Source: Diprion similis (taxonomy: Eukaryota > Arthropoda > Insecta > Hymenoptera > Diprionidae). From it: a stretch of DNA of 64,000 bases. The notes under the pieces were generated by a model. It was not told where the DNA came from, ran no database searches, and worked only from the letters and a program-made list of their open reading frames with translations. The stretch lies in the NCBI RefSeq assembly GCF_021155765.1, contig NC_060118.1, forward strand, positions 3,782,001-3,846,000, given 5' to 3'. Below, in pieces: positions 1 to 18,235 of the stretch (the stretch's first letter is position 1; every line of letters begins with the position of its first letter). The position numbers were made by a program, and so were the translations under genes.

Positions 1-891
1 ATAATGATTTTAATTATAAAAGATGAAAGGTTTTAAATGTAAAGTCACGGAATTCCTTTTTAGCGCTTTAGTTTGTTAAGTTAAATAAAATAAAAGACCT
101 TTTGAATTTCTAACAGATTCTCTGGTCTGATTGATCTGCCTAAAACTGAGAGAACAAACTCTGTTGAAGACTGTCTGACAATTATGTAATGACTGCTTGA
201 CGAAACGGTAAGAACTGCTGAACTATGTCACGACTGACTGACGACTATGTCACAACTGACTGACGACTATCCCACAACTGACTGTTCAGAAAAGTGAGAA
301 TTGAGAATTGAGAAAAACTACTTCCTGATTGGTTCCCAGCATCTTTGCGAGAGCTGTCCAATAAGGAAGTATTGATAAGATTTTGAATTTCCCATTCGCT
401 ATTAACTACCCCCGCCCTTTGGGTACGGTGTAGCATGCAAAACTATCTTAACTAATCCCGCCTCTTCCATGAGTGCGGGTGGGAATTGCCGTGCTTGTTT
501 TGGTACATGATAAAAAATATTCTACTGTATGTTCGGGATGACCCTGTCCAAACAGACACTTCAAAGATGGATATATGGATTTTAATCCGTTGCACGTGCG
601 TGCCAGATTCTGCATACCTGGAAATATCGAGAAGCGATTTCCGGTCATCTGGTTACTCTTAGAGAGTTTGTATATTCCAGTCTGTTTAGATAAGGATTAT
701 CCCGTAACATTATTTAATGAGTAAGATTATTATAAGCTGGGGGTGGTTATTTCCCAGAGCCGTAAAAAGTGATAAAGAAAGCCGTATGCATACAATGCAT
801 ACGGAGACTCAAAAACATGAGATATAAATGAATTTAATCGAAACTGAAATAAAACTAATGAGTAGGGGCAGAGGGCATCGAGGCTGTGACA
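1..891 (-). repeat. 3' LTR of the Gypsy element (partial at window edge)
   Basis: On the minus strand the sequence right after the polypurine tract begins TGTCACAGCC, a typical LTR 5' end, and the end of the env frame overlaps the first bases of the LTR, as in many env-bearing elements. The other LTR end is not in the window or could not be recognised, and there is no second LTR to compare with. No gene is seen in this stretch. Confidence 0.6.
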
Positions 892-1775
892 CCTCCCCCC
901 TCCGTTTCAAATGTTAAACGTGTGTTTAACATTTGACGCTCGCGTAAATGGTCTTCTAGCACTCTGGTGGGTATTAGTTTTATTGCCTGTGATTGAGGTA
1001 CGACCGGTGGGTTTTCCATGTTTTGTTCTTCTGTAAAGGCTTCTCCATTGTTTCCATTGTCCGATTTGGGTTTTCCCAAATGCGTCAGCAGAGTCGTCAA
1101 TGAGCTGAGTAGTGCCCCCAGCAGATGTATACTCCAGCCATAAATTGTGTGTAAAGTATACCCATGGATTCCAACATTGATCACCGTTTTAATTAACTGA
1201 ATAGTGAAGTAGACACCCAGGACTCCATAACTAGCAGTTCCAAACAACATGAATCCATTCCAGAGTTTTCGTGATGTAGATTCGACGATTTTATTTAAAG
1301 AGTTCTCATCCAACAAGCCTGATAAAGATATTTTAGACTCGGAAATAGAATGTCCGGTTGCTCCCCTTGCAACTGCGTTCAAGACAGCTGGTTTTTCGAT
1401 CGGGAACATTACTCGATCGCGGTAACTTTCCAAATCCTCTTCGGTATAGATACCACTGATAGAAAGAGGTGGCGGTTTGGTATATTTCCAAGATAACTAG
1501 GTGATTGGTGTAAGCTTCTCCGGTGCGTCGACGATAACCTTCGGTAGAGGTGAGAATTTGATTGCTACTCCTTGAGCAATTACATCTTCCCATTGTCCGT
1601 ATCCATCGTCGTAACTGGCACCAACACAAATTCCGGTGTCGGTTATTTTCCCGGCAAAAATCGCATCTCTGATGTTGGTTCTGTTCTGAACGAGTCCTGA
1701 TACAATCACATTATTTCCCAATCTGACTATTCCAAAGTTATAAAGCCCCATACAGGCTTCTCTGCTAACTTCGTG
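855..1775 (-). pseudogene. chuvirus-like glycoprotein (env), middle and C-terminal remnant
   Basis: This is the downstream part of the envelope-type gene that follows pol. Between about 1,775 and 1,560 the frame matches the ectodomain region of the second env copy in the window (the Gly-Cys then Y-x-D-x-Y-G-x-W pattern). It then jumps to the membrane-proximal part, so several hundred codons present in the other copy are deleted. A TAG at 1,497-1,499 lies in frame between the two parts. The remainder carries the membrane-proximal M-F-P motif, one hydrophobic membrane segment and a polar tail that ends inside the LTR. Such glycoproteins mediate virion entry in chuviruses; this copy cannot. Confidence 0.65.
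892..903 (-). promoter_or_regulatory. polypurine tract of the Gypsy element
   Basis: The minus strand reads GGAGGGGGGAGG directly before the TGT of the LTR, the usual place where plus-strand DNA synthesis is primed. A very similar tract (54,361-54,370) stands before the second LTR in the window. Confidence 0.65.
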
Positions 1776-1779
1776 TATA

Positions 1780-4470
1780 CCGGGACCATCTCTAGAAACT
1801 AAACAGGAACTGCGCATGCGCCAAATGATTCAATTTCATTGGTCAGCGAAATTGCCCCGCGGAGTAATTTTCGTCAGCTAACCAAGGCGACCAACGTACA
1901 CGAAATGTGACAAGACTCTGAATATCTCGCGCGTAAAGTAGCGTATTGAGGTTATGTTGATATTTATTCCTACTTATCGTGAATTTTCTAAAAAAAGTGT
2001 CATTCAGCAATACCGTAGTTGATATTAGCAGATATTTAATCGACACAATAAAGGCGTCAATGGAGAAACAAATATCAAAAGCTACAGAAATTGGATCAGT
2101 TATTTATTGAAAGAAGAAAACTGAAATTAAATGTGGAACGTCATCAACGAGTGGGAGTCTAGACAAACTGAGGCAGGTAAGTAAAAATATTGTTTATTTC
2201 AAACAGATTCTTTATTTACATAAAATTAAAAATAAATGGATTGTTGAAACCCAGTAGAAGGTTGCTCCAGAGTAGATTTGTTACAGTGCAGTGCTCCGGA
2301 AGCCAGTAATCAGTGCCGATGAACATGAAATATTAAAATAAAATCAGTAACAAGGAATAAAAGAAATAGTGTATCTTGAAACACAAAGCTTAGGAGTACA
2401 AAAAGTAGCAATTCGTTTTTCTGTCGCAATTTATTGAAAATTAGTGGTATCCAAAACAATTAGAAGCTCTTGTCTGATGATAATATCTTTTAATATTTTC
2501 AGGTGGGAAACAACCATCATCGAAGCGAGACTAAAGTTGTCAGGCGTTGAAGCGTGTAAGTAAATTTCTGATGCTATGATATTTGCATATTACAATATTT
2601 TCACATGTATTCAATGATAAAATTCGTTTGTTCTGACAGACTTGAAGTTTCAAGTTTGGATAATAGGATGAAAATCATACCTTACCTGATGGTCAAAACG
2701 TTTTGGTGGCTAGGACCCTAGTTTCTCGATTGGTGCCACCGTTCCAACCATCGAACCTGGTTGTTCCGTTGTTCCATTAGACAACAGGTATCCGAAGGAA
2801 TTTCTTCTGGTCATCGCCACCTTCTGAACATCAGTCGTGGCAAAATTGAAGAGCACGACACGCTACAGATCATGGTGTTTGAATATTCCATTATTTTAGA
2901 TCTATCGAGCCAATAGTAATAAGTTTGTTATTCAACAATTGCTGCTAACTAATTTTACAGAGCAATCATTCCGTGCACCATTGTAATCCAAGCAGTATTA
3001 TTGGCCCACATTATTTTTCAAATTTTATTATCGGCAGTTTTGATATTTTATTTTTCACTCTCTTGGTATTCAATTCAGATGAATAGTGTTTCAAGTGTTA
3101 AATCAGATTCCAAGGATGAATTTTGATGTGTAAACTGAACCAATCTCAATCTAAAAATGTTGGATAACTTCAGTTGAAAATGTCTTTAAAGTCAATATTA
3201 ATCGACAGTATCATCTGACTAGCTAGTTGCAGCTATCATCCGTGCTTGAGCCTCGTTCAACCCCAGCAGGGTCTAAGGAATGCATTCACTTACTAGTACA
3301 CGTTACAAATGATCACTTTGTCTACAATAGGACTTACTTGCTGGCTAACTTTTTTATGATGAATCTTTATCAGGGAGTCATCCGGTAACTTATTGAAAGC
3401 TTGAAACCAGATTCAATTTTATACTCTTACAATGGTCCTTCATTGAAACTGAGAGTTTGTGAATCTCCATTTATTACAATTAATTCTGCATCCCATGTTA
3501 ACACTGTTCGAAACAAAAAATCTCATCCTAAGATTGGAAATGGAATCTGCAATGCAAAAGTTATCTAGTGGCACAAGTTAAAAACAAAGAACCTTATAAC
3601 GGTTTCTGCAACAGAGGGATTCCTTCCGGACATTCATGTTACTGGATGATGTTCGGAGCACTATGAACAAGATATTGTATTGGATTTAGGTTTGAGTAAA
3701 TATTTTCATGAACTTCAGTGAAAATTAGATATTCATTTGTTTCAAAGGAACAAGGGGTACAATGTTGAACCCGATAAGTCAATATTTTCATATGAATGTT
3801 CTGAACATTACTCTAAAACATGATTATCCTTAAAGTTAATTACTGAGGCACATTTTGAAAATGTTGATTTTTAACTTGTGTCACAGAATGTTTCTGAGTT
3901 TTACTCTTGGGATTAGATTTCTTCAGATTAGATTTGAAATTGAAAGAAACCGTAAGATCTACAACTTCCTTTTTCAACCAACAAAAGTGGCCGATGATCT
4001 CTGCATGTGTCATGAATTGAATGGGAAGAGAAGACATCAGCTAACAGCAGAGATGCTATTATTTTGGCTGTATTTTCTGTTAAAAGAAAAAAATTTCATT
4101 GTTATTCTTAATGTATGAAGTAATGAAAATGATTGAATAAATTGTCCCCACCTACCTGCTTCGTTTCTTCCAAGCACCCAACATTTGAACAGATTTCTTG
4201 TTTCAATCGAATAGGACGAATTTTCAAAGAGCATCAGTATTAAATTCCGACCGTTCTTTGAACAATCAATTTTCAATAATAAATGCTTCCCAAGCCTTTC
4301 CGAGTGACTATCTGAATGACTTGAGATTCTAACCTCAAAAATGCATGTGAACTACATCGCCGACAGAAACAGAGTTTGACAGCAGGGTCTCGGGGTGGCC
4401 AGACTGCACGGACGGCGGATTTAAATTCGCGCATGCGCAGTTCCTGTTTAGTTTCTAGAGATGGTCCCGG
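1780..4470. mobile_element. 2.7-kb DNA transposon inserted in env
   Basis: The ends are perfect 42-bp inverted repeats (1,780-1,821 and 4,429-4,470) starting CCGGGACCATCTCTAG and ending in the palindrome GCGCATGCGC. TATA flanks both ends (1,776-1,779 and 4,471-4,474), so the target duplication is TATA or TA. Joining the flanks restores continuity with the related env copy, which proves an insertion. No intact transposase is visible. Two exon-like stretches end in strong donors (GTAAGT at 2,177 and 2,558), and decayed coding-like sequence is seen around 3,390-3,700. It is probably a non-autonomous or decayed element; superfamily not assigned. Confidence 0.8.
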
Positions 4471-4474
4471 TATA

Positions 4475-4768
4475 AACTCATCGTCCTTTCCTGACCGCAA
4501 AATTGTGTGAGTGCATAACACAGTGATAGACTATTCTATCAATCTCAATTTTGCACTGGACGACATCTACATGATGAAATTCAGCTAGTTGCAGCAATTG
4601 AACATGGATTTCATCGAAAATAGGTTCCTTTCCTGGTATGTTGCATTTTCCGATGCTGGCAGTGTCGATAATTGATGTGTTCCTCGAAGTTCCTCCACAG
4701 TCGTATCCCACCAGTGCCCAAGTTACGATGGGCATCAATAAAACGATCGTAAGAATGACTTTACTCAT
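4475..4768 (-). pseudogene. chuvirus-like glycoprotein (env), N-terminal remnant
   Basis: The frame starts at an ATG (4,766-4,768) with a classic signal peptide: a lysine, then a hydrophobic stretch of about 16 residues ending A-L, followed by G-Y-D-C-G-G, the kind of mature N-terminus seen in chuvirus-type glycoproteins. It continues for about 85 codons with spaced cysteines, then runs to a TGA after a small frameshift just upstream of the transposon insertion at 4,470. It is the 5' piece of the gene whose remainder lies at 855-1,775. It follows pol by about 400 bp, in the env position. Confidence 0.65.
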
Positions 4769-5165
4769 TGTCCCTTTTCTTTAACAGAGTGTTCTACTCA
4801 TTTAATAATAAAGAAAATATTTGCATAATTTAATATTCTTAAACTATTAAATACAATTGCATTATATCTTTCTGTTCATTCGTTCTAAAAGCAATATACT
4901 TATATTCAAATGACTGAAACTATTGATTATTATTTCTATGAATTTATCCAAGACTGAAAATATTGTATTATAAAAGATTATTTTCCTAATTTTAAAGTAT
5001 TCTATTAGATTCAACTAACATTATTTTGTTTATACTTATATTTTATACATCAGTCAATCATTATTCCTAAATGAAGCTTATTTAACGTAATTATACAGAA
5101 TGATTTGCCTATTACTGAAAATCTACAATTATACTTTCCTTATTCTAGTTAACTATGATGATTAG
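4769..5165. other. AT-rich pol-env spacer
   Basis: About 400 bp between the pol stop and the env start, very AT-rich, without a recognisable reading frame. In env-bearing Gypsy elements env is made from a spliced RNA, so an acceptor might lie here, but I cannot single one out. Confidence 0.4.
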
Positions 5166-8100
5166 TTATCCTTTTAAAATTTTTAAACTGTTCATATGAA
5201 CTGTCTTGATTTTATTTCCAACTTGAATTTTGACATTCTGATTTTCTAATAATTCTTGAATTTCATACGGTCCTGAATATTGATCAGCAAATTTCCCTTT
5301 TTTGGGTTCCTTTAGAAAAAAAACTAGGTCTCCTTTCACCAAGTTCAACGAGTTTAATTTTTTATCATAATAATATTTAGATTTTTCTTTAGAGTGTATC
5401 AGGTTTTCTTTAGCCAGATTTTGGATATTTCTAATTTTGGTGAAAAGTTCAACTAAGTATTCTTCGTAAGTTCGATCATTTAATTCCTCAATTATTTCAT
5501 GTTCAGAAGGTAGTCTCGCTAATTTTCCAAAAACTAATTCGTAGGGTGTATATTTTGTTCCCTCATGAACACTTGTGTTGTAAGAAAACATTGCAAAGTC
5601 TAGCCATTTATCCCAATTATTATTTTTCGTAACATATTGCTTTAGATATTCAGCTAGAACATGATGTGATCTTTCTATAGATCCATTTGATTGGGGATGG
5701 AAAGCTGTTGTTTTGCATTGTTTGATTTGAAATTTCTTTGCTACTATTTTCATTAATGAACTTGTGAGATTAGCACCTTGATCAGTAAGAATATGCTTAG
5801 GAGCTCCAAATTTACAAATAAAATTATTGATCAGGGCTTCTGCCACATCAATTGAGGTTGTTGAATTTAATGGTACTGCTACGGAATATTTGGTTAATTG
5901 ATCTTGAATTGTTAAAATATATTCATTGTTTGAAGGAGTGATAGGTAAAGGACCTACAATGTCCATAGATATTTTCTCAAAGCTTGAACCTGGCGTGTCA
6001 GTTAACACCATAGGTTGCTTAGTTTTAACTTTTGTTAATTTTTTAAGTTGACATTCCATACATTCCGTAACGTACTGCTGGACTTGCAGTTTCATATTTG
6101 GCCAAAAGAAATTCTGTCTAATTCTATTGTACGTCTTTGTAACTCCCTTGTGTCCTCCTATTGGTAATGCATGATATTCTCGAATTATCTCAGTACGTTC
6201 TTTGAGTGATGGGACTCTAATTAAATTTTTGCAAATTGTTATTCTACATTCATTATCATTAAAAATGGATTCCAATAAAATTCTAATTTCTTTCCAATTT
6301 ATTTCATCTATTTTTCCAGTTTTTGATATTGATAAAGTATTCAAATTTAATTCTCGAACAACATCTAAAAGAGATTTTAACGATTCTATTAAAATATCAC
6401 GATCCAAGGGTGTATTTACTGATTCCTTGATTGGTAGGACAATACATTTCTTGCTTCCCATTGGAGTTACTCGTGCTTTTCCTAACATAGCTTCTGTGAT
6501 TTTTGGTAATTTATTTACATTTTGCAAATCTTTAGATCCCTCATCTAGCGGAATTCCTCGAATAGTTGTAAAAATGACACAATTATCACTTCGCATGGAA
6601 AGTCTATCCCGAGTCTCAATAAATTTTAGATTATTTTGTGATTCTTCCTCATCTGATTCAAGATCTACCATTTCTATTTCACTATCTGCGGATAATTCTG
6701 TATCCTTATCAGATTCATCATCAGAATATTCAACAGGGCTGTTCATGATTTCCTCCCTTTCATTTTCAATGGATCTGTGAACTTCTGTGTTTTGTATGTT
6801 ATTATTTGTGTTAATAGTTTCTAGAATTTCATCATTTGTTGTATTATTAGATTGTTCTTGGTTTTCATTGTAAAAAAAATCAGAATCATTTAAAATATCT
6901 TCTGCATTGATATGTGCTTTAAATTTTGATTTACGCATTTTAAAATTGTCCGTGTATCTGTCTGGTGCTTTTATGGTCTGTCTGTCTCGAAGTTTACGAC
7001 CCATATTTCCTGTATTCTGAACGTTTGGGTTTTCCGAATTTCTATCCTTTTCTACACTTGGGCCAGCTATTACATTACCTTCTCGCGATGGGCTACCCTC
7101 GTGGTATGGTTTACTACCTGAAGGTCCTTGACCTTGTGGCCTATATATTTTGGGTGTTTCAGTTTTCTCGTTGACATATATAAGTACTTGAAATGGTTCT
7201 GTAAAAAGGATATCGATCTTTTCTTTTACTTTTTCCCATGGCAATTTATCTAAACCACATCCTATCTTAGGCATAGCGATTTTATAACAGTTCAAATTTT
7301 CACATAAACTTCTTAGTGATATCAAACTTCGTTCTAATGATTTTAATGTTGGTTTTTCGTTACTTCTTTTTTTCGTTATTAAATAGAATATGTGTCTATT
7401 AACATCTTTTAGAAAAGCTACTTCACCAACAGACTTCTTTTGAGATTTCAAGCAACTGACATTTCCGAAACGTTTTTTAAATTCAAGAGCTATACCTGCG
7501 CTCATACTGAAATCTTCTGCTACGCAATGAACTAATGAATAGTTTTGGTCTACTGTGAATAAGTCACCTGAAATAATTTTAATATTTCCTGTTGGCTTTC
7601 CTATCACATCCTGGATTTGTTGTTTAATTGCCAATATTTGTGTTTTATTCAACACTGGGTTTCTTGACAATGCGTCAGCATTGGCGTTTATCCTTCCAGG
7701 TTTGTATTCCCAGCTATATTCATATTCCGCAAGTTTTAATCTCCATCGTACGAGTCTCGACATTGGATCTTTGACTGAGTGCAACCAAATTAAAGGTCTA
7801 TGATCTGTGACCAATTTAAATTTCTTTCCATATAAATATGGTCTAAAATAATTAACTGCATAAACTATAGCCAATAGTTCTTTCTCAATTGTTGAATAAT
7901 TTCTCTCTGCCTGGTTTAACAATCTAGATGTATACGCTATTGGTAAGTCTTTTCCTACTGTACCTTGACTTAATACTCCTCCTATCGCGAATCCTGATGC
8001 ATCTGTTGTTACGATAAATGGTTTGGTAAAATCCGGATATTGAAGTATTGGATTTTCACACAATTTATCTCGTAATTGATTGAAGGCTTTTTCTTGTGCA

Positions 8101-8324
8101 TCTTTCCAGAGAAATTTAACATCTTTTTTCAAAAGTTCCGTCAAAGGTTTTGCTATCTTGGAGAAATTTGGTACAAAGCGTCGATAGTAACCGATTAGAC
8201 CTAAAAATTGTTTTATATTTTTCGCATTCTTGGGTTTCGGGAATTCTTTAACTGCTACGATTTTCTTTGGATCGGGTTTTACACCATCCTCACTGATTAT
8301 GTGGCCTAAATAGACTACTTCTTT
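5166..8324 (-). CDS. Gypsy Pol C-terminal half: RT end, RNase H, macrodomain module, integrase
   Basis: An uninterrupted frame of about 1,050 codons; its upstream limit is an in-frame TAG (8,325-8,327) inside RT, so no real start exists here. Residues below count from the codon at 8,144. RNase H has acidic residues D48, E89, D114 and D157 (motif N-A-D-A-L-S-R). Next come an OARD1-like macrodomain (about 187-325), a polar linker with an acidic run (about 420-505), a degenerate macro-like segment (about 519-640), an HHCC zinc site (H658, H665, C695, C698) and the integrase core D728, D788, E824 with D-x35-E spacing. The C-terminus ends shortly after a G-P-Y/F-type motif. The acidic linker and macro module are absent from textbook Gypsy Pol. 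RT and RNase H copy the RNA genome and integrase inserts the DNA. This half shows no stop or frameshift, unlike the other half. Confidence 0.9.
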   Translation of the reverse strand, partial: KEVVYLGHIISEDGVKPDPKKIVAVKEFPKPKNAKNIKQFLGLIGYYRRFVPNFSKIAKPLTELLKKDVKFLWKDAQEKAFNQLRDKLCENPILQYPDFTKPFIVTTDASGFAIGGVLSQGTVGKDLPIAYTSRLLNQAERNYSTIEKELLAIVYAVNYFRPYLYGKKFKLVTDHRPLIWLHSVKDPMSRLVRWRLKLAEYEYSWEYKPGRINANADALSRNPVLNKTQILAIKQQIQDVIGKPTGNIKIISGDLFTVDQNYSLVHCVAEDFSMSAGIALEFKKRFGNVSCLKSQKKSVGEVAFLKDVNRHIFYLITKKRSNEKPTLKSLERSLISLRSLCENLNCYKIAMPKIGCGLDKLPWEKVKEKIDILFTEPFQVLIYVNEKTETPKIYRPQGQGPSGSKPYHEGSPSREGNVIAGPSVEKDRNSENPNVQNTGNMGRKLRDRQTIKAPDRYTDNFKMRKSKFKAHINAEDILNDSDFFYNENQEQSNNTTNDEILETINTNNNIQNTEVHRSIENEREEIMNSPVEYSDDESDKDTELSADSEIEMVDLESDEEESQNNLKFIETRDRLSMRSDNCVIFTTIRGIPLDEGSKDLQNVNKLPKITEAMLGKARVTPMGSKKCIVLPIKESVNTPLDRDILIESLKSLLDVVRELNLNTLSISKTGKIDEINWKEIRILLESIFNDNECRITICKNLIRVPSLKERTEIIREYHALPIGGHKGVTKTYNRIRQNFFWPNMKLQVQQYVTECMECQLKKLTKVKTKQPMVLTDTPGSSFEKISMDIVGPLPITPSNNEYILTIQDQLTKYSVAVPLNSTTSIDVAEALINNFICKFGAPKHILTDQGANLTSSLMKIVAKKFQIKQCKTTAFHPQSNGSIERSHHVLAEYLKQYVTKNNNWDKWLDFAMFSYNTSVHEGTKYTPYELVFGKLARLPSEHEIIEELNDRTYEEYLVELFTKIRNIQNLAKENLIHSKEKSKYYYDKKLNSLNLVKGDLVFFLKEPKKGKFADQYSGPYEIQELLENQNVKIQVGNKIKTVHMNSLKILKG
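6225..6590 (-). other. second, degenerate macrodomain-like segment in Pol
   Basis: Residues 519-640 (counted from the codon at 8,144) follow the fold pattern of the first macrodomain: a hydrophobic strand C-V-I-F, an L-G-K-A-R-V segment matching V-G-E-V-A, the strand C-I-V-L-P-I-K-E matching I-F-Y-L-I-T-K-K, a long helix, then S-K-T-G-K-I-D-E-I-N-W in the place of P-K-I-G-C-G-L-D-K-L-P-W, and a final helix and strand. The ligand loops (G-D-L-F, A-G-I-A, G-C-G-L) are lost while one K and one D persist. I infer an ancient tandem duplication; structure prediction would decide. Confidence 0.5.
7170..7586 (-). other. OARD1/TARG1-like macrodomain within Pol
   Basis: Located between RNase H and integrase. 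Signature elements in order: S-G-D-L-F, then S-L-V-H-C-V-A-E-D, M-S-A-G-I-A, a K-R-F-G loop, V-G-E-V-A, F-Y-L-I-T-K-K-R, and M-P-K-I-G-C-G-L-D. This is the order and spacing of the small macrodomain protein OARD1 (TARG1), which removes ADP-ribose from glutamate/aspartate side chains. Its catalytic lysine (human K84) and aspartate (human D125) correspond to K258 and D299 here, and both are present. Inference: the retroelement protein may reverse host ADP-ribosylation or bind ADP-ribose; activity is untested. Confidence 0.85.
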
Positions 8325-10020
8325 CTATAAAAATTCGCATTTATCTGGTTGAAGTTTTAAATTTGCATTTCTTAGTTTTGTCATTAATAAATTGAATTTA
8401 TCTTCGTGTTCTTTGAGTGAACTTGAGTATATTACTATATCATCGAGGTAAACAAATAGTTCTATACCCTGTAAACCCCGTAAAACGTGATCCATCAACC
8501 TTTGAAACGTTGCTGGTGCGTTCTTTAAACCAAACGGCATTCTTTGAAACTGATAATGGCCATATGGTGTTGAAAATGCTGTTTTAGCTGCATCTTTGTC
8601 TCTCATTTTAATTTGATGAAAACCTGAGGCTAAATCGAATATTGAAAAGTATTTTGCACTACCTAATTGATCTAAAATTTCCGTTATATTTGGTAACGGG
8701 TAGGCGTCTCCTACTGTCTTTTCATTTAAATTTCGATAATCTATCACCATTCTCCAGCGTTTATTACCCTTGGAATCGTCCTTCTTTGGTACGATCCATA
8801 GTGGAGAATTATATGGAGATAATGACGGTTTAATAATGTCATTATTTAATAAATCCTTTACCTGCCTATTTATTTCTTCTTTATGAACTGGCGGGAATCT
8901 ATATTGTTTAATATTTATTGGTTGTTCGTTGATTGTATTTATTTCATGTTCTATAACATTTGCGGCTCCTAATAGCTCACCGGGAATATGAAACCTGTCT
9001 TGGTTTTCATATATTAGACGATGTATACTTTCTTCTTCTTCGTCATTTAAATGTTCGAGTCTTAACAGCTCTAAGATTTCGTTATAACGGGTTTTTGCGT
9101 CAATTTTATAAATCTTTCGAATTTTTTGAAAGCTTTGTATGCAATGATCATTTTGGATGCTCTGATTATTTTGATTGCAATGATCATTTTGGATGCTCTT
9201 ATTATTTTGATTTTTTCGATTATTTCTTTTTGAAATTAATTCTGGATTTGAAAACAAACTTTGTTGACCTATTCTATCGTCATTTCCCTGCCCTAAGGAA
9301 AGGTTTGACTCAGAAATTCCATTTCTCACTAGAGGATTTGCTAAATCACTCACGCAATTTTCCTGCAAGTCAAGCCCTAAGGTTGAATCGTGCAGCGGTA
9401 TCGCGCCCTCGCTAGGTAGCAAACTTATGGTCGGTACAAGCAACTCCATCTCCTCGTCCGTAGAATTAATTATTCGAATATGCGCTTTTCCGTTATCATT
9501 TTTAACTAACGCTTCTCCTAAGAATACTCCTTCTTTTACGGTAAATCTTGGTACGTAACCTTCGTTTACGTCTTTATTTTTTATTTTGATATAAAATGGA
9601 GCATTTGAACGTGCGGGAATTGTAACTACCTTACGCGTATTGAAATAAAATACCAAGTCGTTTATTTCGACTAATTCTTGAGCATAATTAATTGTTGCTT
9701 TTTGAGATTGGAAAAAGTTCGTTCCCAGAATGCCGGCTTGAGGAATTGGAAAATTGTCACTGACGACATGAAAGTAAACGGGCATTCCAGATATTTCAAT
9801 TTTTACACATCCTAAGGTGTGAACGTAACTATCTGTTATTCCTCTCAGTTGCAACACATTATTCATATCAATATTATTTAATGATGAAAGACTTCCTATT
9901 TTTAAAAGATTCGGCTTCGATCCCGTTCTATCATTACGTCTATTTCATCTATCAAGTCCCTAGATTTTATTTTTATTGTAGGTACTTGATCATTGATTTT
10001 TAATTTTATTGTTGCGACGC
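8325..10020 (-). pseudogene. Gypsy Pol N-terminal half: protease and reverse transcriptase
   Basis: The pol frame overlaps the end of gag in the -1 frame, the usual frameshift arrangement. The retropepsin D-T-G motif is cut by a one-base deletion near 9,925-9,929, so the catalytic aspartate codon is lost and the frame shifts. Downstream, a Gln/Asn-rich linker with a 36-bp tandem repeat leads into RT, with the P-S-x-S-P-Y-N-S-P, Y-P-L-P and F-G-L-K-N-A-P motifs and the catalytic Y-L-D-D. The RT frame ends at a TAG (8,325-8,327) just after K-C-E-F-L; the same frame then continues into the other half. Two lesions therefore separate gag from a functional polymerase. Confidence 0.85.
9141..9212 (-). 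repeat. 36-bp tandem repeat (2 copies) in pol
   Basis: Two adjacent 36-bp units (9,141-9,176 and 9,177-9,212) encode a repeated 12-residue Asn/Gln/Ser-rich motif ending N-D-H-C in the linker between protease and RT. Confidence 0.8.
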
Positions 10021-11127
10021 GGACTCTTGTACCTCCTGAGCAATCATGGCTGTTTGGGTTTGGTTGACCACCCGGGGTCCGCTTTGTGTTACCGAGGGTC
10101 CCTGGCCGTTTCCCGAATTCTGATTACTCGAATTTTCTTGAATATTTCTGCGATACTGCAATTTACGACACACATCTATTGTGTGGCCTGTCCTTTTACA
10201 ATATCTACAAGATGCTAGATTTTCATTTGTTGAATTACCTACTTGCTCGTTGCTTCGACTACTTTGAGGTTGATTTTGCGTGAAATTTCCACGTCTGCTG
10301 TTATTTCCGTTATTGCCATTGCTTCTATTACTTCCGTTATCACTTCGCGGTTGGTTTTCTCGTCTGAAGCGACAGTTTTCCGTTGCATGGTTGGTTCGTT
10401 GACATATTCGGCATTTTATAAATGATTGCGGATTAGCCTGTTGCGATTACTGTTTGAAATTTTGAGCTACTTTTCCCCTTGCTTTCTCCATCTCAAGGCG
10501 TCCACCTAACTCTATGGCTGTGTCAAATGCTTCGGTAAGGGAGGTATATCCTTTTAAATGTAAGCCTATGCTGAATTCTGATGGCAGTCCTTCTATAAAG
10601 CCCTTCAGTGTTTCTGACTCTATGGCTTTTTCCGTTTCCTCATTCACGTAACCGTTTGTGCGTCGTTCACATTCTAAAATTGCGGTCTTAATGTCTTTGA
10701 TTCGACCGATGTATTCTATAATGTGCTCATCAGATCTTTTGAATGCTCTAGCTAATTCTCCGCGGTAAAAATTCACTGATCGAGAAGGTGCGAAAACTGT
10801 CGATAATTTATCTAAGAACAATTCGAGGGTGTCAAAAGTTTGTTCTTCTACCACGATATACGCTTTATCTTTTAGCTTTGCCTTGATATTCCTAACTAGC
10901 TGTTTTTCTAATCTAGGTGCAATCACAGCTTTTGCTCGCTTGCAAGCTCGGACAAATTGAGAAAACGGTAAATTATCCCCGTCGTAAGATGGTATTCCTG
11001 CTACAATTGAACCCATCGGAATTGACTGTTCTGCCGTAACGATTTCTACTTCATTTTGCGGACGTTCAGTTCTACCTACATTAATATGCTGCTGCTGCTG
11101 CTTCGAAGTATCCACCAATTCTTGCAA
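10006..11127 (-). pseudogene. Gypsy Gag with two zinc knuckles, chimeric 5' end
   Basis: The capsid-like helical region starts around I-P-S-Y-D-G-D, a common capsid-domain entry in Gypsy Gag, and runs about 200 residues to an in-frame TAA (10,447-10,449), probably from CAA. The same frame continues through a polar Arg/Asn/Gly stretch with two C-x2-C-x4-H-x4-C zinc knuckles (C-R-I-C...C and C-R-Y-C...C) to the true stop at 10,006-10,008. Gag would package the RNA and build the particle. The first 20 or so residues belong to Maverick gene sequence rather than Gag, so the normal N-terminus is absent. Confidence 0.8.
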
Positions 11128-11279
11128 CGGTGTTACAAGGGCTTGAACACCTCCCCCATAATCTGGTCGGTCGTGCCTTTGTCCAACTTGATCATTTTGT
11201 GCTTCCGACGTATGACATCGCTTGCTTTCGATATTTCACTCAACGTATCGCTATGCTTACGAATCTTGACACTCTCCAT
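11061..11279 (-). pseudogene. Maverick unknown gene, 5' fragment (copy C)
   Basis: An ATG at 11,277-11,279 opens a frame whose first about 45 residues match the start of the 300-aa proteins at 19,072-19,971 and 62,095-63,003 (an I-R-R-K-H motif, then V-F-K-P). A frameshift near 11,140 moves the match (V-T-P-L-Q-E-L-V) into the frame that becomes Gypsy gag. The rest of the gene is missing. Function unknown. Confidence 0.7.
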
Positions 11280-11321
11280 GTTGCCGACTTGATCGTCACA
11301 ATTGAACTGTGCGAGTTTGCG

Positions 11322-12023
11322 TTAGTTTATGCTTATAAAGCAGTCAAACCCCTTCCTGTATCTTCCCTCGTTGATTTCACTACCCTTGTCAATTACGACA
11401 AAACTGTATTTACCTTCATTCCAGCATGCCGAGCATAAGTCCTTAAATTGATGATATGTCATGTCGGTTTTCACGTGATCGTTGTAGATATGTTTCAGAT
11501 TCATTTCATCTTGTCGAAATAGCACCAATAAGTTTGCATTGTCACGCACCAGGTGTTTCGGAATACGTGCATACGTTTGACTAAGATAAAAGCTATCGAC
11601 GTCGCGATGCCTGCCCATGCTGAAGTAAGCTCTGCTATTATCCTGCTTCTCACACGCCACATCGTCAAAAATCATAACAGAAATAGGGTGGGCCTCTTCT
11701 GGTTTGACAACTTGATCGTTCTCACCAGACGGAAAATAGCCCACACCCTGCACGGATTCTAGTAACTTTTCCAAAAATTGACATTTTGGCTGAATGAGGG
11801 ATTTTGAATAAACGTAGACATTTTCGAATCTCAATCCGTTGCCATGGGTGATTAGAGAGAGGAGAGCGTTCGTTTTACCACAATTCGATGGGCCGCAAAA
11901 AATTGCCCTCACGGTATTTGGTAGTAATTTTCCATGACGTTTCTCCTTCCTCTTCCTCCCCCGACGAACCATTTTGTCGAAATTTGCAACAAGTAGTTTG
12001 TCAGTCTGATCTTGAAATCTCAT
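11322..12023 (-). CDS. Maverick genome-packaging ATPase (copy C)
   Basis: A 233-residue protein of the FtsK/HerA-like packaging ATPase family used by Polintons and related double-jelly-roll viruses to drive DNA into capsids. The Walker A loop is G-P-S-N-C-G-K-T (residues 44-51); Walker B is V-M-I-F-D-D (residues 116-121), followed by A-C-E-K-Q. A basic N-terminal run precedes the ATPase core. Of the three copies in the window, this one alone has neither stop nor frameshift. It is divergently transcribed from the PLA2-like gene across an 87-bp intergenic region holding TATA boxes for both. Confidence 0.85.
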   Translation of the reverse strand: MRFQDQTDKLLVANFDKMVRRGRKRKEKRHGKLLPNTVRAIFCGPSNCGKTNALLSLITHGNGLRFENVYVYSKSLIQPKCQFLEKLLESVQGVGYFPSGENDQVVKPEEAHPISVMIFDDVACEKQDNSRAYFSMGRHRDVDSFYLSQTYARIPKHLVRDNANLLVLFRQDEMNLKHIYNDHVKTDMTYHQFKDLCSACWNEGKYSFVVIDKGSEINEGRYRKGFDCFISIN

Positions 12024-12110
12024 GATGCTCGGTTAACGCGACAACGAGAACTAAGATGACCGCATATAAATTCATCCTTTTATAGAACTCGCGTTAGTTG
12101 CTGTTCGACT
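12024..12110. promoter_or_regulatory. bidirectional promoter between ATPase and PLA2-like genes (copy C)
   Basis: The 87-bp gap contains ATATAAA (about 12,064) for the plus-strand gene and, on the minus strand, TATAAAAGG (about 12,080) for the ATPase. Opposed TATA motifs occur at the same place in copies A and B. Confidence 0.5.
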
Positions 12111-12941
12111 ATGAAGACGTGCACACGTAAGAGACGCGGTGGTGGTTTGCTAAACAAAATCATCAATCATCTCCCAGTTGAATTGCACGTGCCTGGGTAT
12201 CAGTACTGCGGACCCAGAACAAAATTGGTCAAGAGGTTGGCACGCGGTGATCCGGGTATCAATCCATTGGACGCTGCATGTAAAGATCACGACATTGCAT
12301 ATGCAAGGAATCGAGATATTGCTGCGAGAAATCTGGCCGACAAAGTGCTTGCCGAGAAGGCGTGGAATCGTGTTTTAGCCAAGGATGCTAGTGTGGGTGA
12401 AAAAGCTGTCGCGTGGGGAGTCACCAACACCATGAAAGCTAAATCTAAACTCGGTATGGGTTTAGCAAGGAAGCTGTCGAAACTTGGAGCCGGTGCGAAG
12501 TCACAGAAAAAACCCCCAACGGGTGGGAAGACTAAACAGCAGAAGAGGACAATAAATCTTAAATCTATCATTAGGGCAGCAAAGGCCTCCATGCGACCAG
12601 GTCATAAAGCTGTCGAGTCGGCGTTGGCCGGAGCCCGTGCGGCTGCGCGTGAGGCAGGGAAGAATGTTCGTGTGCTCCGTGTTATACCCGTGCCCGAAAA
12701 AATTGGCGGCATCCTACCCCTCCTCATTCCAATTTTGGCTGGTCTAAGCGCAACGGGGGCTCTCGCTGGTGGTGCAGCAGACATAGCTAAAGCAGTCAAC
12801 GAGGCTAGCGCCAACAAACATCAGTTGAGTGGGACCGAACGACACAATGCAACAATGGAGGCGATTGCGTTGGGCAAGGGATTATACCTGAGACCGTATC
12901 GCAGTGGCATGGGTCTGTACTTACATCCGGCAAAAAACTAA
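12111..12941 (+). CDS. parvovirus VP1-type phospholipase A2-like protein (copy C)
   Basis: A 276-residue protein. The N-terminus is basic (K-R-R-G-G-G), followed by a compact PLA2 domain: the calcium-loop motif Y-C-G-P-R-T-K-L (residues 32-39) and the active-site helix C-K-D-H-D-I-A-Y with H60 and D61. This is the PLA2 form of parvovirus VP1, also known from arthropod Mavericks and adintoviruses, where it helps virions breach membranes. Copies A and other family members have Gly where this copy has Arg37, so activity may be reduced. A hydrophobic Gly/Ala-rich segment (about residues 200-225) may be membrane-active. The stop overlaps the protease start (TAATG). Confidence 0.8.
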   Translation: MKTCTRKRRGGGLLNKIINHLPVELHVPGYQYCGPRTKLVKRLARGDPGINPLDAACKDHDIAYARNRDIAARNLADKVLAEKAWNRVLAKDASVGEKAVAWGVTNTMKAKSKLGMGLARKLSKLGAGAKSQKKPPTGGKTKQQKRTINLKSIIRAAKASMRPGHKAVESALAGARAAAREAGKNVRVLRVIPVPEKIGGILPLLIPILAGLSATGALAGGAADIAKAVNEASANKHQLSGTERHNATMEAIALGKGLYLRPYRSGMGLYLHPAKN

Positions 12942-13303
12942 TGAAGCTACCACGCCGAGCACTCACCAACGTTGATTTACACAAATATGTTCAAGATATG
13001 AGAATTCCACATTTTCGCGGTGTTTTCATGCGGAATGGTCTACCATCATCAGGACCGAAGAAACGAGAATCCGCAATTAATAATCTTGACGATAAGAACG
13101 GCCCCGGGACACATTGGGTTGCATATAAGAAAAACGGTGATCACGTTGTGTATTTTGATAATTTTGGTGATTTGCAACCACCTAGGGATTTGATGAACTA
13201 TCTCGGTGTTGGTAGCGTAAAATACAATCATAAGAGGTATCAGGAATACGATACAGTGATTCGTGGTCACTTGTGCCTCAAATTTCTTAGCGGGCAGCTA
13301 TAA
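12941..13303 (+). CDS. adenain-like cysteine protease (copy C), nucleophile lost
   Basis: A 120-residue protein of the C5 (adenovirus protease) type that matures capsids in Mavericks. The histidine motif G-T-H-W-V-A-Y and the acidic motif Y-F-D-N-F-G are present. At the nucleophile, copies A and B read C-G-H-L-C-L but this copy reads R-G-H-L-C-L, so the first cysteine has become arginine (TGT to CGT would do it). The protein is therefore probably inactive although the frame is open. Its ATG overlaps the stop of the PLA2-like gene by one base. Confidence 0.75.
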   Translation: MKLPRRALTNVDLHKYVQDMRIPHFRGVFMRNGLPSSGPKKRESAINNLDDKNGPGTHWVAYKKNGDHVVYFDNFGDLQPPRDLMNYLGVGSVKYNHKRYQEYDTVIRGHLCLKFLSGQL

Positions 13304-13335
13304 AAACAGCGGTGTCACATTGGCGAGCATCAGTC

Positions 13336-13872
13336 ATGACGGAATCGCTGTCGTTAACACTGTCGGGCACCTCATCCCTGCGGGAGGCTTAATATTTTCT
13401 CCCAATCGAGTTATCGTCGACGAAAAACTATGTTCTCGGGCTCGTCGAGTTCATGACATTCAATTCAATACCCAATATTCAAGAGAAGTGTAATAAATTT
13501 TACCTGGAGCGAGCGGACAACAGCCGGGCAGTCATTACGATACCCACAGGCAGCTACGAAATTGAAGATATTCAAAGTTTTCTGCACAAGGAACTACCTG
13601 CCGACATCTCCCTTAGTCTGCAGGCCAACAACAACGAGCTAAACAGTGAAGTTACGTGCAATCAAGTAGTAGACTTCAAACCCAAGGATTCCATTGGCCG
13701 ATTATTGGGGTTTAAAGCGGTTGAGCTAGCACGGGACGTTACGCATAAGTCCGAAATACCGGTAGCCATACTGAAAGTTAATACCATACGCGTTGAGTGC
13801 AACATAACCACCGGGGCGTACATAAAAGGGCGTCCGAGCATTGTTTTCGGCAACCCGATATCAACCACCTAA
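13336..13872 (+). pseudogene. Maverick penton-like (single jelly-roll) capsid protein (copy C)
   Basis: The frame starts at the ATG 13,336-13,338 and matches the 228-aa protein at 59,370-60,056 (T-L-S-G-T-S-S near the start, T-F-N-S-I-P-N, and the G-S-Y-E-I-E-D motif). A TAA at 13,390-13,392 replaces the glutamine codon seen in A and B. The match ends after the T-T-G-A-Y motif near 13,835, and the last 60 or so residues are missing. Minor capsid (vertex) proteins of this kind sit at the fivefold corners of Maverick-type virions. Confidence 0.7.
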
Positions 13873-14056
13873 CATTCGACAATTAATAATTCCGAGAATT
13901 GCTGGGATGAACCAAGTGACATTCCGTTCCCACGATATCGAACCACGTGTCATTCTTATCAAAAGTCCGAAGTCTGAAGTGATTTTAACCATGTGACATT
14001 CTTTTCCCCTCTCCACCAAATTTCAAAACGCAAGTGGGGGAGCAGTGTTATAAAAG
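13866..14056 (+). promoter_or_regulatory. four-copy promoter repeat and TATA box
   Basis: Motif CCA-N-GTGACATTC occurs at 13,912, 13,943 (GTGTCATTC) and 13,989, with a weaker copy (CCACCTAACATTC) at 13,866. Spacing is 46, 31 and 46 bp. A consensus TATAAAAG follows at 14,049-14,056, about 45 bp before the first ATG. This looks like an upstream activating array. Confidence 0.55.
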
Positions 14057-14097
14057 TTGGAACCGCAAAGGTCAGCGTCAGTTTGAAGCTGTTCTTC

Positions 14098-14280
14098 ATG
14101 AAAAGTACTCCGCAACAACAACAACGTGAATTCAAGAAGCGTCTACAACTTTTAATCAAGAATATCGAAGAAGTAAAACAACTCCTAAAAATCAGATCCG
14201 AACTGCATCAACTCACAAGAAGATTTGAAGCAATACGACTCAACAGTAACCATCATCATGGACTTCACAAAATTGAATGA
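14098..14280 (+). CDS. small coiled-coil protein, Maverick A
   Basis: A 60-residue frame beginning at the first ATG after the TATA box. It has a Gln run (Q-Q-Q-Q) and then a charged, leucine-rich helix with heptad-like spacing, ending in a His-rich tail. It overlaps the start of the following OB-like gene by 23 bp in another frame, so the two could share one mRNA. I do not recognise a family. It may be a real small protein or a regulatory upstream frame. Confidence 0.4.
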   Translation: MKSTPQQQQREFKKRLQLLIKNIEEVKQLLKIRSELHQLTRRFEAIRLNSNHHHGLHKIE

Positions 14281-14566
14281 AATCGCACGCTTGGAAACTT
14301 TCTTGCCATTGAAAAAGCTGGCAGACCTTGACGAATACTACGAGTACGGAGTAAGCAGTGTTCGTCGAGTGAAAACGAAGTTCGGCGACAAAGTAGTTGC
14401 AGACTTGGAGGATTCCTTTACCATTTTTCTTCCAAACCGGTTGAATAAAGCCCTCCAAGAAGACGAAGAGCTGTTCCAGAAGGTGACCACAGCCAGTAAG
14501 GATGCACGATTGCGCATACGCTACCTTGGTGGACCGTATGGCCAACTTGAATTTATTTATGTATGA
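14258..14566 (+). CDS. putative OB-fold-like protein, Maverick A
   Basis: A 102-residue protein from the ATG at 14,258. The core V-K-T-K-F-G-D-K-V-V-A-D-L followed by F-T-I-F-L-P-N-R resembles alternating beta strands of an OB-type fold and a short protein family I associate with arthropod Mavericks. A single-stranded DNA-binding role in replication is plausible but inferred. AATAAA follows at 14,612. It is convergent with the next gene. Confidence 0.5.
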   Translation: MDFTKLNEIARLETFLPLKKLADLDEYYEYGVSSVRRVKTKFGDKVVADLEDSFTIFLPNRLNKALQEDEELFQKVTTASKDARLRIRYLGGPYGQLEFIYV

Positions 14567-14795
14567 TCTACACATCACGTATATCCACTACCTTGTAAAA
14601 GTCATGCGTTCAATAAAAAAATAAATGAAATTATTATGCGTTTATCATTTAGCGTAAAACCTTCCTCCTCCTGATAATGATATTAGTATGGGAGAAATTA
14701 TACTCTCAACAGCGAAAGGTGAGGTAACATATTAATGCATAAATATTTTAAAAAAAGCTTTATTGAAATTACTTTTTAACGTTAGTACAATAATT
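14567..14795. terminator. convergent 3' ends with polyadenylation signals
   Basis: AATAAA at 14,612-14,617 serves the plus-strand genes. On the minus strand, AATAAA overlaps the stop of the 198-aa gene and recurs about 40 bp further on. No reading frame is seen between. Confidence 0.5.
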
Positions 14796-15392
14796 TTATT
14801 CAACAGTATCGTAACCAGGATGATATTTTTGCCAGGAATGCGGGATCGTTCTTGTAGATGCTTCTGCGCAGTAGCACAAATCGCTCACCGTCGCCATCCG
14901 TACAACATGGTGATTCAGTAACCAATTTTGGAGTAACATGACGTTTCCAGCTGCACAGTTTGCGTTGGGTATTGTGTGCTCGTCACATCGTACATGTACA
15001 GCTGAAATTTTTTGAATGGTTTGAAGCGATGGACAGCCTAAGTCCAGCAAATCGATGATTTGAACTTTGGGGACAATTTTAAGCAGCCAATCTCGTTTTT
15101 CTTCTCCCTTCACGTACACCCTGCGAGCTTTGCTCAGCTCGTATTCAATTGTCCATTCCACTTTCTCGAACGGTATATTTCCACAGCTCCAAGGTAGACC
15201 GTGAAAATTGCGGTGCAACCATGGATTTTGGCTTTTATATTTGACGTGTAGACAGTCCCATTCGTAAGGTGGCTTGAAGAGAAACGTCGATGGAGGTGCT
15301 TCCGAGTAAATTGAAATTACAGCCAATTCTTTCAACGTGAAGGTGTTGTCGCAAGGTCTACGGAAGCCTTGTATGTCGACGATGAGCTCCAT
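14796..15392 (-). CDS. conserved Maverick protein of unknown function (copy A)
   Basis: An intact 198-residue protein from a real ATG (M-E-L-I-V-D-I-Q-G-F). A counterpart lies at 57,333-57,896. Conserved features are the opening V-D-x-Q-G-F, a hydrophobic P-P-Y-x-W segment, the H-G-L-P/S-W motif, D-L-G-C-P-S-L near the middle and a C-terminal region with spaced cysteines and histidines (N-C-A-A, then leucine-rich). I know this only as an uncharacterised protein that recurs beside the capsid gene in insect Mavericks. A virion or morphogenesis role is inferred from position. Confidence 0.7.
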   Translation of the reverse strand: MELIVDIQGFRRPCDNTFTLKELAVISIYSEAPPSTFLFKPPYEWDCLHVKYKSQNPWLHRNFHGLPWSCGNIPFEKVEWTIEYELSKARRVYVKGEEKRDWLLKIVPKVQIIDLLDLGCPSLQTIQKISAVHVRCDEHTIPNANCAAGNVMLLQNWLLNHHVVRMATVSDLCYCAEASTRTIPHSWQKYHPGYDTVE

Positions 15393-15429
15393 GTTTCAAC
15401 TGTGAGAGGTGGTGGGAATTGGACAGCTT

Positions 15430-16136
15430 TTATACCAACTTTTTCACCCCTCCACTGAGTGGGTTGTATTCAACGATTCGATCGTGAACAATCAAGCAGT
15501 ACGCCGATGTTTCAGCGGGAAAATTGGCTTTAACTTCAAATTCAAGGCGGATGTCAACGGGTCCGTACTTCAAGGATTCATTTTGTTTTGAAAATCATCA
15601 GTTTTGGATCTCGTTAAAATCAACTCGTGTTTGGCATTGACAACGATCTTGCGGTAGTCTTCAGCGACACCCAGTATCGTGCTGAGCGGTATCAATACGT
15701 CAAAATTACCCTCGGCATCGGTTAATTTTTTCTTCTCTTCCACGTCAAGCCATCCTGCGTTCTCCATTAGCCAACTCTGACCAGGGTTCAGAGAAGCGTA
15801 ACCCTTCATTAGACTTGTCAAGCCAACATTCTTGCTTCTGTCGATCTCAACCGCATTAATTTCGTAGCGAATTTCTTCAAATAAATGACAGACGGCGTTG
15901 TTTACGAGCTGCGTATTCACAGTCGCTGTTCCATCAGCTTTTAAGAGTCGTCCGTGGATATGGACCGAACTTTTGCCGGGTAATATGCATAAATCCTGAT
16001 GCTGAACGGTGATTCGAATTTCATCGCTGTTGTTGAATGTTGACGAGGCGTAAGGTTTGTGAGCGTGAATTTCGTAATGCGCAATGGATTCGTCGAAAAT
16101 GACCGGTGTTTGAATGTTTAAGATTTCTTCTTCCAT
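15430..16136 (-). pseudogene. Maverick major capsid-type protein (copy A), internally deleted
   Basis: The start is the ATG in good context (TACCATGG) at 16,134-16,136. The N-terminal half matches the intact 406-residue protein at 57,938-59,155 (T-F-N-N-S-D-E-I-R-I, then N-A-V-E-I-D). After about 185 residues the frame jumps, out of frame, to the last 50 residues ending Y-N-P-L-S-G-G-V; about 170 codons are deleted. The junction is A-rich (TTTCAAAACAAAA) and may reflect microhomology. The family (F54H12.2-like in nematode annotation) fits the double-jelly-roll hexon of Polintons. This copy cannot make a capsid. Confidence 0.7.
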
Positions 16137-16173
16137 GGTACGTAGCAGACGACGAAACAGCAAAATCGGATTC

Positions 16174-16347
16174 TTATTTGCCGGAATTCCCTTTTCCAAA
16201 AGGTGTCAGTTGCAAGCCCAGAGCTATCAGGAACTCTACGTTCCGAGGTGTTAACGGTTCGTGAATCGATCGATGACTGACTTGATCGGGACATGTCGAC
16301 TTACTGATATACCTATTCTTTGGATGTCTGTTATAAACGATACCCAT
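16174..16347 (-). CDS. conserved 57-aa Maverick protein (copy A)
   Basis: A short frame between the penton and capsid genes, from ATG 16,345-16,347. It encodes 57 residues, begins M-G-I-V-Y-N-R, has a C-P-D-Q-V-S-H-R-S-I core and ends L-G-L-x-x-T-P-F-G. Copy B has a frame of exactly the same length with about 70% identity, so selection on the protein is likely. It sits 3 bp after the penton stop, within the same transcription unit. Function unknown; it could be a capsid cement or a cleaved structural peptide. Confidence 0.6.
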   Translation of the reverse strand: MGIVYNRHPKNRYISKSTCPDQVSHRSIHEPLTPRNVEFLIALGLQLTPFGKGNSGK

Positions 16348-16350
16348 CGT

Positions 16351-17036
16351 TTATTGCGATTTGATGTGTAGTCTCACAGTTATAACTTCACCACGAAAAT
16401 TAACCAAGTCTCCGTCTTGATCCACTAACCGAAGCTGAACGTAATCTATGGTCCTGACGGTGATCGGAAGGTAAATGACGTGCGACGGCACTTTCACGAT
16501 CTTATATCCTGGTGGGACGGTTGGAAAATTTCGTGAATAGTGTGTACTTTACGTCCATTGACATAGGCACCCGTTGTAATGCTGCACTCAACTCGCAACG
16601 CGTTGACCTTAAGTATAGTTAGAGGCACGTCTGATTCGTGAGTTCCATCAGCCTCCAATACACGTGGTGTGAATCCCGAAAGTTGAGCAATGGAATCGTT
16701 CGGTTCAAAGTTTAGACTGCGGTCGCATGTGATTTCGCTGCGTAATGTGTTATTGTTGGGCTTAATGTCGAGCCTGATGCTAGTATTTCTTAGTACGTTT
16801 TGAAGATACTTCTCTATGTCTTCGATCTCGTAGCTGCCGGTAGGTATAGTGATCACTCTATCAGCCACGTAAATTTTATTGTGACCAACATCAACGTTGG
16901 GGATTGAATTAAAGGTCAACAATTCTACCAAACCAAGAGCATAACTTTTATCACAAGCAAGTTCAATCGGAGGAAAATATTGCGCTTCGAGAATCGAAGA
17001 GGTTCCCGAAATTGTTAACGTTGGTGAATCATCCAT
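16351..17036 (-). pseudogene. penton-like single jelly-roll capsid protein (copy A)
   Basis: From ATG 17,034-17,036 the frame matches the intact copy B protein over about 165 residues, including S-G-T-S-S, N-S-I-P-N-V-D and I-P-T-G-S-Y-E-I-E-D. Near 16,538 a one-base deletion shifts the frame, and the intended C-terminus (ending H-I-K-S-Q, stop at 16,351-16,353) is out of frame. The family is the minor capsid protein of Polintons. Confidence 0.75.
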
Positions 17037-17066
17037 GGTTGCGAGTGATAGACTGGCTGTGTTGAA

Positions 17067-17441
17067 TTACGCACCATACTTATATAGTTCACCGCTCAAA
17101 AATTTCAAGCACAAATGTCCGCATTCAAATGTATCATAATCCTGGTACCTTTCATGATTGTATATAACGCTACCAATACCGAGATATTTGATGAGGTCCG
17201 AGGGTGGTTGAAGGTTACCGAAACTGTCAAAGTAATCGATGTTACTGTCACGTTTCTTGTACGCAACCGAGTGTGTTCCCGGACCCTCTTTGTCGTCAAG
17301 GTTGACTATAGCTGACTCGTTTTTTCGTGGACTGTTTTTGGGCATTTCGTTCCGCATAAGAACACCGCGGAAATACGGTATCTTGAAGATTTTTGCATAT
17401 TTCAACAAGTCCCAATCGGTCAACGCTCGACGTGGTAGCTT
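17067..17441 (-). CDS. adenain-like cysteine protease (copy A)
   Basis: About 124 codons open, with the catalytic histidine (G-T-H), the acidic Y-F-D-S-F-G motif and C-G-H-L-C-L for the nucleophile. The tryptophan usually following the histidine is serine here (T-H-S). No in-frame ATG stands where copy C has one: the ATG after the PLA2 stop is out of frame, so either the start was lost by small indels or translation begins inside. The processing protease acts on capsid precursors in related viruses. Confidence 0.7.
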   Translation of the reverse strand, partial: KLPRRALTDWDLLKYAKIFKIPYFRGVLMRNEMPKNSPRKNESAIVNLDDKEGPGTHSVAYKKRDSNIDYFDSFGNLQPPSDLIKYLGIGSVIYNHERYQDYDTFECGHLCLKFLSGELYKYGA

Positions 17442-17446
17442 CGCAT

Positions 17447-18235
17447 CTAGTTTTTTGGAAGATGGAGACCGAGACCCGTTTTATACGGTTTCAAATGAAG
17501 TCCTTCACCCAAAGCGATAGCTTCCATAGTTTTGTTGTGCCGTTTGCTCTCTTCCAGTTCTCGTTTAGCAGCGCTCGCATCGTTCGCAGCTTTCGCTAGA
17601 CCTGCCGCACCACCAGCTATCGCGCCTGTGGCACTAAGTCCAGCGAAAATAGGAATCAAGAATGGTAGAAATCCACCAACTTTTGAAGGTACCGGTAGAA
17701 CGCGCGGTGTTCGCACTTTACATTTACCACCCGCTTTTTGAACAGCGTTTTCAGCCCCCTTGAGCGCAGACTCGATAGCTACTTTTGCATCGTTGCTCGG
17801 AATCATAGATCGTTTCGCAGCATTTATAATTTTTCTTAAGGTCACGTTTTTCGGTTTTCGAATTCCCATTCCTAGTTTCGATTTCACTTTCATTGTATTA
17901 GCTACCGCCCAAGCCGCTGCTTTCTCGCTCAAATTGGCGTCCGGTGCGAAGACCCGTTTCCACGCTTTTTCAGCCAATACCCTATCAGCCGCGTTCCTGA
18001 CTTCAAGATTTTCACGATTCTGCGAGTAAGCAATGTCATGGTTCTTGCAAGCTGCGTCGAGAGGATCGTTTCCCGGATCACCTCGCGCGAGTCTCTTTGT
18101 CAACTTTGTACCAGGTCCACAGTATTGATAACCAGGTACGTGCAATTCGACTGGAAGACTGTTGATGATTTTATTCACCAGACCTTTGCCGCGACGTTGC
18201 CGTTTGCTGCTTCGTTTACCTCTGTGCACGATCAT
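17447..18235 (-). CDS. parvovirus VP1-type phospholipase A2-like protein (copy A)
   Basis: An intact 262-residue protein from ATG 18,233-18,235. A basic N-terminus is followed by the PLA2 calcium loop Y-C-G-P-G-T-K-L (residues 38-45) and the active-site helix C-K-N-H-D-I-A-Y with H66/D67, all canonical. A Gly/Ala-rich hydrophobic segment lies around residues 195-220. This is the only copy in the window with both an open frame and a canonical loop. It likely travels in the virion and helps cross endosomal membranes, by analogy with parvoviruses. It is divergent from the ATPase and directly upstream of the protease. Confidence 0.8.
   Translation of the reverse strand: MIVHRGKRSSKRQRRGKGLVNKIINSLPVELHVPGYQYCGPGTKLTKRLARGDPGNDPLDAACKNHDIAYSQNRENLEVRNAADRVLAEKAWKRVFAPDANLSEKAAAWAVANTMKVKSKLGMGIRKPKNVTLRKIINAAKRSMIPSNDAKVAIESALKGAENAVQKAGGKCKVRTPRVLPVPSKVGGFLPFLIPIFAGLSATGAIAGGAAGLAKAANDASAAKRELEESKRHNKTMEAIALGEGLHLKPYKTGLGLHLPKN

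Follow-up and report, generated by a model that had tools for sequence, protein, structure and literature searches.

The Pol protein of a Ty3/Gypsy-type retroelement in the insect Diprion similis contains a macrodomain of the TARG1/OARD1 type, which we call MAC1, between RNase H and integrase, and a second, divergent macrodomain, MAC2, directly ahead of integrase. The element lies on the minus strand of a 64,000-nucleotide (nt) stretch of contig NC_060118.1 (positions 3,782,001 to 3,846,000, hereafter the window, numbered from its first letter). It shows the Ty3/Gypsy order, with Gag upstream, then a protease-reverse transcriptase (PR-RT) frame and a 1052-amino acid (aa) frame holding the end of RT, RNase H and integrase. 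An earlier note on this DNA had identified the macrodomain between RNase H and integrase, and sequence, fold and conservation across families bear that identification out; it overlooked the second macrodomain, the presence of the domain in several families and the defective state of the window copy.

Pol carries two TARG1-type macrodomains

MAC1 matches human OARD1 in sequence (4.2e-36), and the window copy scores above the Pfam Macro cut-off. Pfam misses two of four MAC1 stretches scanned alone. Structure comparison gives a macrodomain fold with TARG1 as the nearest structure, the point on which the earlier note had staked its reading. The residues of the TARG1 pocket are in place, and so are Lys258 and Asp299, as the note had said. 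Across the MAC1 alignment the catalytic Lys is found in 17/17 rows and the Asp in 16/17, and the dyad persists between families whose MAC1 domains are only 32-40% alike. In intact copies MAC1 shares its reading frame with RT and integrase, and in young copies the open frames run through both macrodomains. At L037:4357-5208 two MAC1 copies precede MAC2 in tandem; one is partial, and the other, which is complete, is the one that has lost the Asp.

MAC2 likewise adopts a macrodomain fold, and its C-terminal end lies ~7 residues ahead of the integrase zinc domain. Pfam gave no match for the window MAC2, nor for any of four MAC2 stretches scanned alone. Lys and Asp are each kept in 9 of the 11 MAC2 rows. 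In window-type MAC2 the loops corresponding to human 32-45 and 120-124, which belong to the ADP-ribose pocket, are altered, and this speaks against ADP-ribose binding by MAC2. The stretch ahead of integrase in this clade, so far without assignment, can now be named a macrodomain.

Macrodomains mark a clade of Ty3/Gypsy elements

Searching the 269-Mb genome with the MAC1 sequence as a single query gave 109 matches (150 of 180 candidates scored), a count that includes pieces, broken copies and host exons. Many matches sit in open frames of 1676-1841 aa, and many copies of the macrodomain elements are broken. Of twenty loci fetched, 14 carry RNase H before MAC1 and a piece of integrase after it, all on one strand, at a MAC1 identity of 33-99%. 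In the remaining six, one flank is missing from the stretch, the order differs (L038, L039) or the genes belong to the host (L047). The unusual order of L038 (G000:C14:3852100-3862000) lies in one single frame of 1386 aa, which runs from the RT end through RNase H, MAC2 and integrase to a degenerate macrodomain; after this come a retroviral aspartyl protease (Pfam 3.6e-8) and lastly a MAC1-like start.

From 570 RT candidates we took the 150 that were scored, a few of them being fragments of a single RT, and surveyed them with five macrodomain queries, counting a macro-like match when it lay on the same strand within about 6 kb downstream of RT. Such a match accompanied 96/101 RTs at identity of at least 60% and 0/49 below 60%, and the trait therefore marks a clade. 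With the two MAC1 queries only, 79/101 of the close RT matches were positive, which answers the earlier note's concern that related elements might lack the segment. Macrodomains thus mark one Ty3/Gypsy clade, in part of which MAC1 is apparently missing or unrecognisable. The RT tree has 14 rows, a single one of which is an RT without a macrodomain, and is too small to add to the identity bins.

MAC1 is under purifying selection in two subfamily pairs. Between L041 and L024 it differs by 27 synonymous and 7 non-synonymous changes, a ratio of non-synonymous to synonymous rates (dN/dS) of 0.050 (neutral p 3e-13) that is close to those of RT (0.032) and RNase H (0.037). Between L031 and L034 the ratio is 0.170 for MAC1 (p 7e-8) and 0.176 for MAC2. 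MAC1 of L042 and L045 gave 0.124. Pairs whose dS is saturated yield no ratio and were left out; for L043/L049 we also left out the rows of RT and of integrase, which matched another element in L049. Two of the seven loci tested, L041 and L043, have end repeat pairs of at least 82 and at least 124 nt (they reach the stretch ends) that are 100% identical; we infer that these are long terminal repeats (LTRs) and therefore that MAC1-bearing families moved recently.

Relatives and origin of MAC1

A protein search with the window MAC1 found three long proteins, two of them Pols, and the same layout is present in an Athalia rosae protein (P0001) and in a 1709-aa Pol (P0002). MAC1 alone as query matched 54 short proteins, from which 31 were picked by hand for the structure alignment, 25 for the free trees and 24 for the constraint test. 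A search of IMG/VR gave two matches, weak and partial. P0003 (ENA source, 1220 aa) has a glycosyltransferase-90 domain followed by a C-terminal OARD1-type macrodomain 58% identical to MAC1; our guess is that it comes, perhaps, from a large DNA virus.

At locus L047 (G000:C2:13505000-13514900) a pair of OARD1-like genes interrupted by introns lies in tandem, and we assign both to the host. Identity to the window MAC1 is 43% and 47% for host OARD1-like genes, 49% for human OARD1, 66% for the Athalia element and 62% for the P0002 element. Recent capture from this host's own gene is not favoured, since the element domains are nearer than the host genes. A one-off capture, which the earlier note had considered, is rejected because the segment recurs across families and in proteins from elsewhere. 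In unconstrained trees window-type MAC1 falls among the cellular OARD1 proteins and is separated from MAC1 of the L041/L042/L043 type, but a constraint uniting all 17 MAC1 is not rejected (p-AU, approximately unbiased test, 0.26); the trees would be compatible with one capture as well as with two.

The element in the window

Features of the element are listed below. Gag was assigned from its position and from what matched in sibling elements; the Pfam scan of the window frames gave no Gag match, and the second Gag frame has cysteine-rich stretches that by eye resemble zinc knuckles. The window copy is dead, because an in-frame stop splits Pol and no LTR pair is seen in window 1-20000, where there are no direct repeats of at least 60 nt.

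Table 1. Features of the macrodomain element in the window.
Feature	Position	Strand	Remarks
Gag open frames	10009-11235 (10450-11235 and 10009-10446)	minus	stop between the two frames
PR-RT open frame	8328-9944	minus	RVT_1 at about 8328-8792 (Pfam)
In-frame stop	8325-8327	minus	between RT and RNase H, splits Pol
1052-aa open frame	5169-8324	minus	RT end, RNase H, integrase
RNase H domain (RT_RNaseH)	7722-8033	minus	Pfam
MAC1, TARG1/OARD1-type macrodomain	7170-7589	minus	Pol residues 186-325; sequence, Pfam, fold
Lys258 codon	7371-7373	minus	catalytic Lys84 of human TARG1
Asp299 codon	7248-7250	minus	catalytic Asp125 of human TARG1
Linker MAC1-MAC2	6630-7169	minus	~180 aa, acidic/polar-rich by eye
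MAC2, second divergent TARG1-type macrodomain	6225-6629	minus	Pol residues about 506-640
Integrase	5169-6203	minus	H2C2 zinc domain (648-702), rve core (722-816), C-terminal part; Pfam
Env stub, 96 aa	4481-4768	minus	N-terminus of Monjiviricetes (chuvirus-type) fusion glycoprotein; Pfam 2.8e-26

The Env stub lies downstream of the Pol frame. In L031:2120-2410 Env likewise stops at 96 aa and is followed by a separate 298-aa frame, and the same piece was matched in L032 and L033; the shortened Env was therefore probably propagated with the element. The PR-RT frame contains an array with an 18-nt period that varies in length between copies (L031:6704-7135, L032:3104-3301, L033:6723-6920), with a short form near 9120-9230 of the window. 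Adintovirus/Polinton-like genes, recognised by eye from translations as a packaging-type ATPase, a PLA2-like capsid protein and a protease, adjoin the element at 11322-13303. These genes come with an inverted repeat of 341 nt, 74% complementary, at 11331-11671 and 18659-18999.

Discussion

We propose, with a probability of about 0.6, that MAC1 is an active (ADP-ribosyl)hydrolase carried with RT and integrase that clears ADP-ribose placed by the host, and that MAC2 is a binding or structural module borne by integrase. According to the papers cited here, TARG1 cleaves the ester of ADP-ribose to Asp or Glu by a lysine Schiff-base path in which the acid residue assists (PMC9411070, PMC7050489). 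It also clears ADP-ribose from nucleic-acid termini (PMC7050489) and was assayed on DarT-type thymidine-linked ADP-ribose (PMC9411070). Made as part of Pol, MAC1 would be packaged alongside RT and integrase and would remove ADP-ribose from element proteins, nearby host proteins or cDNA ends, letting reverse transcription and integration finish. The chemistry would be that proposed for TARG1, in which the lysine attacks the anomeric carbon and carboxylate or phosphate leaves, the acid residue helping to resolve the Schiff base. MAC2 would remain on mature integrase, somewhat like the chromodomain of chromovirus integrases, its binding role, if any, being related to ADP-ribose. MAC1 may protect the element against tagging by its host; the roles that the earlier note suggested, to counteract PARP-based restriction or to locate PARylated chromatin, are plausible but putative.

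Several observations weigh against this proposal. The L037 MAC1 is without the catalytic Asp, and Glu replaces Asp in two degenerate post-integrase macrodomains. Among the close RT matches, 17/101 gave only a MAC2-type match and 5/101 none, and in the genome search a family with an 1896-aa frame matched neither MAC1 query. MAC1 of another family, of the L050 type, retrieved zero proteins as a protein-search query. Low dN/dS is not found everywhere (L035/L036 0.43, L042/L048 0.47, L043/L049 0.54, with few changes each), and between families MAC1 outpaces RT and integrase (L041/L043 dN 0.587 vs 0.234 and 0.370, respectively). The L031/L034 pair is a mosaic, dS in its MAC1 (0.45) being fourfold the value in its RT (0.10).

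MAC1 and MAC2 might both be readers that hold the integration complex at ADP-ribosylated chromatin or at DNA breaks, hydrolysis being incidental. The closeness of MAC2 to integrase fits such a role, and it has precedent, as macrodomains may read ADP-ribose as well as erase it (PMC7050489). However, the full TARG1 catalytic pair of 16/17 MAC1 rows would be superfluous for a pure reader, and the pocket loops of window-type MAC2 are altered; we consider this explanation unlikely. Alternatively, MAC1 might free the phosphate ends of element RNA or cDNA from ADP-ribose for use by integrase, in keeping with its place between RNase H and integrase and with the action of TARG1 on nucleic-acid termini and the thymidine-linked substrate mentioned above. 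This is one substrate choice inside the hydrolase proposal, and as an explanation of its own we hold it to be quite improbable. That the domains have no function for the element, being passengers or spacers that were captured a single time and are in slow decay, is very hard to credit: MAC1 is seemingly absent in part of the clade, MAC2 pockets are degraded and many copies broken, but purifying selection acts in two pairs (dN/dS well below 1), distant families retain the dyad and the frames of young copies stay open through both domains.

MAC1 and TARG1/OARD1 (C6orf130, an ALC1-like class hydrolase) are alike in fold, pocket residues, Lys84/Asp125 dyad and size. TARG1 is a stand-alone cellular enzyme, whereas MAC1 forms part of a retroelement Pol in which a second, divergent macrodomain and an integrase come after it. 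RNA-virus macrodomains are counter-measures to PARP-based immunity; those of alphavirus nsP3 and rubella p150 share 12-13% identity with MAC1 in the structural alignment and belong to RNA viruses without integration. Some lentiviruses place a dUTPase between RNase H and integrase, an accessory enzyme travelling in Pol, and chromovirus integrases carry a chromodomain. Both resemble the macrodomains as accessory Pol modules beside RNase H or integrase and differ from them in fold and substrate. The DarG macrodomain, the DarTG antitoxin, has the Lys and is without the dyad Asp (PMC9411070), whereas MAC1 has both; the NCBIfam DarG score is 50.3 bits, against a cut-off of 250.

Extra open reading frames (ORFs) of fish epsilon-like retroviruses encode macro domain proteins (PMC4977317, citing Basta et al. 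2009). The fish retroviruses and the window element thus have in common a macrodomain carried by a retroelement, but in the former it is an additional, separate ORF, which the window element does not have; here a pair lies in frame inside a Ty3/Gypsy Pol. Searches of the open-licence literature, seen mostly as listings, showed no report of a macrodomain or TARG1-type domain in a Gypsy Pol, nor of a macrodomain beside integrase, and the parts of PMC12440569 and PMC10541861 that were available contain nothing on macrodomains. A macrodomain in a retroelement therefore has precedent, and for a TARG1-type pair inside a Gypsy Pol these sources gave no report.

If a selected TARG1-type hydrolase in Pol and a macrodomain on integrase are real, retrotransposons have long faced or exploited ADP-ribosylation, and MAC1 elements offer a direct and testable way to ask whether ADP-ribosylation serves animals as a defence against retroelements. 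A wider and doubtful extension, offered tentatively, is that the whole clade carries a read-and-erase Pol module, in which MAC1 as eraser and MAC2 on the integrase N-terminus would make integration sensitive to ADP-ribosylation by the host: host tags would be cleared from cDNA ends and from the pre-integration complex, which would be steered to PARP-marked DNA breaks or chromatin. Were this true, insects would defend themselves against retroelements, and the elements would answer, on a front not recognised so far, that of ADP-ribosylation.
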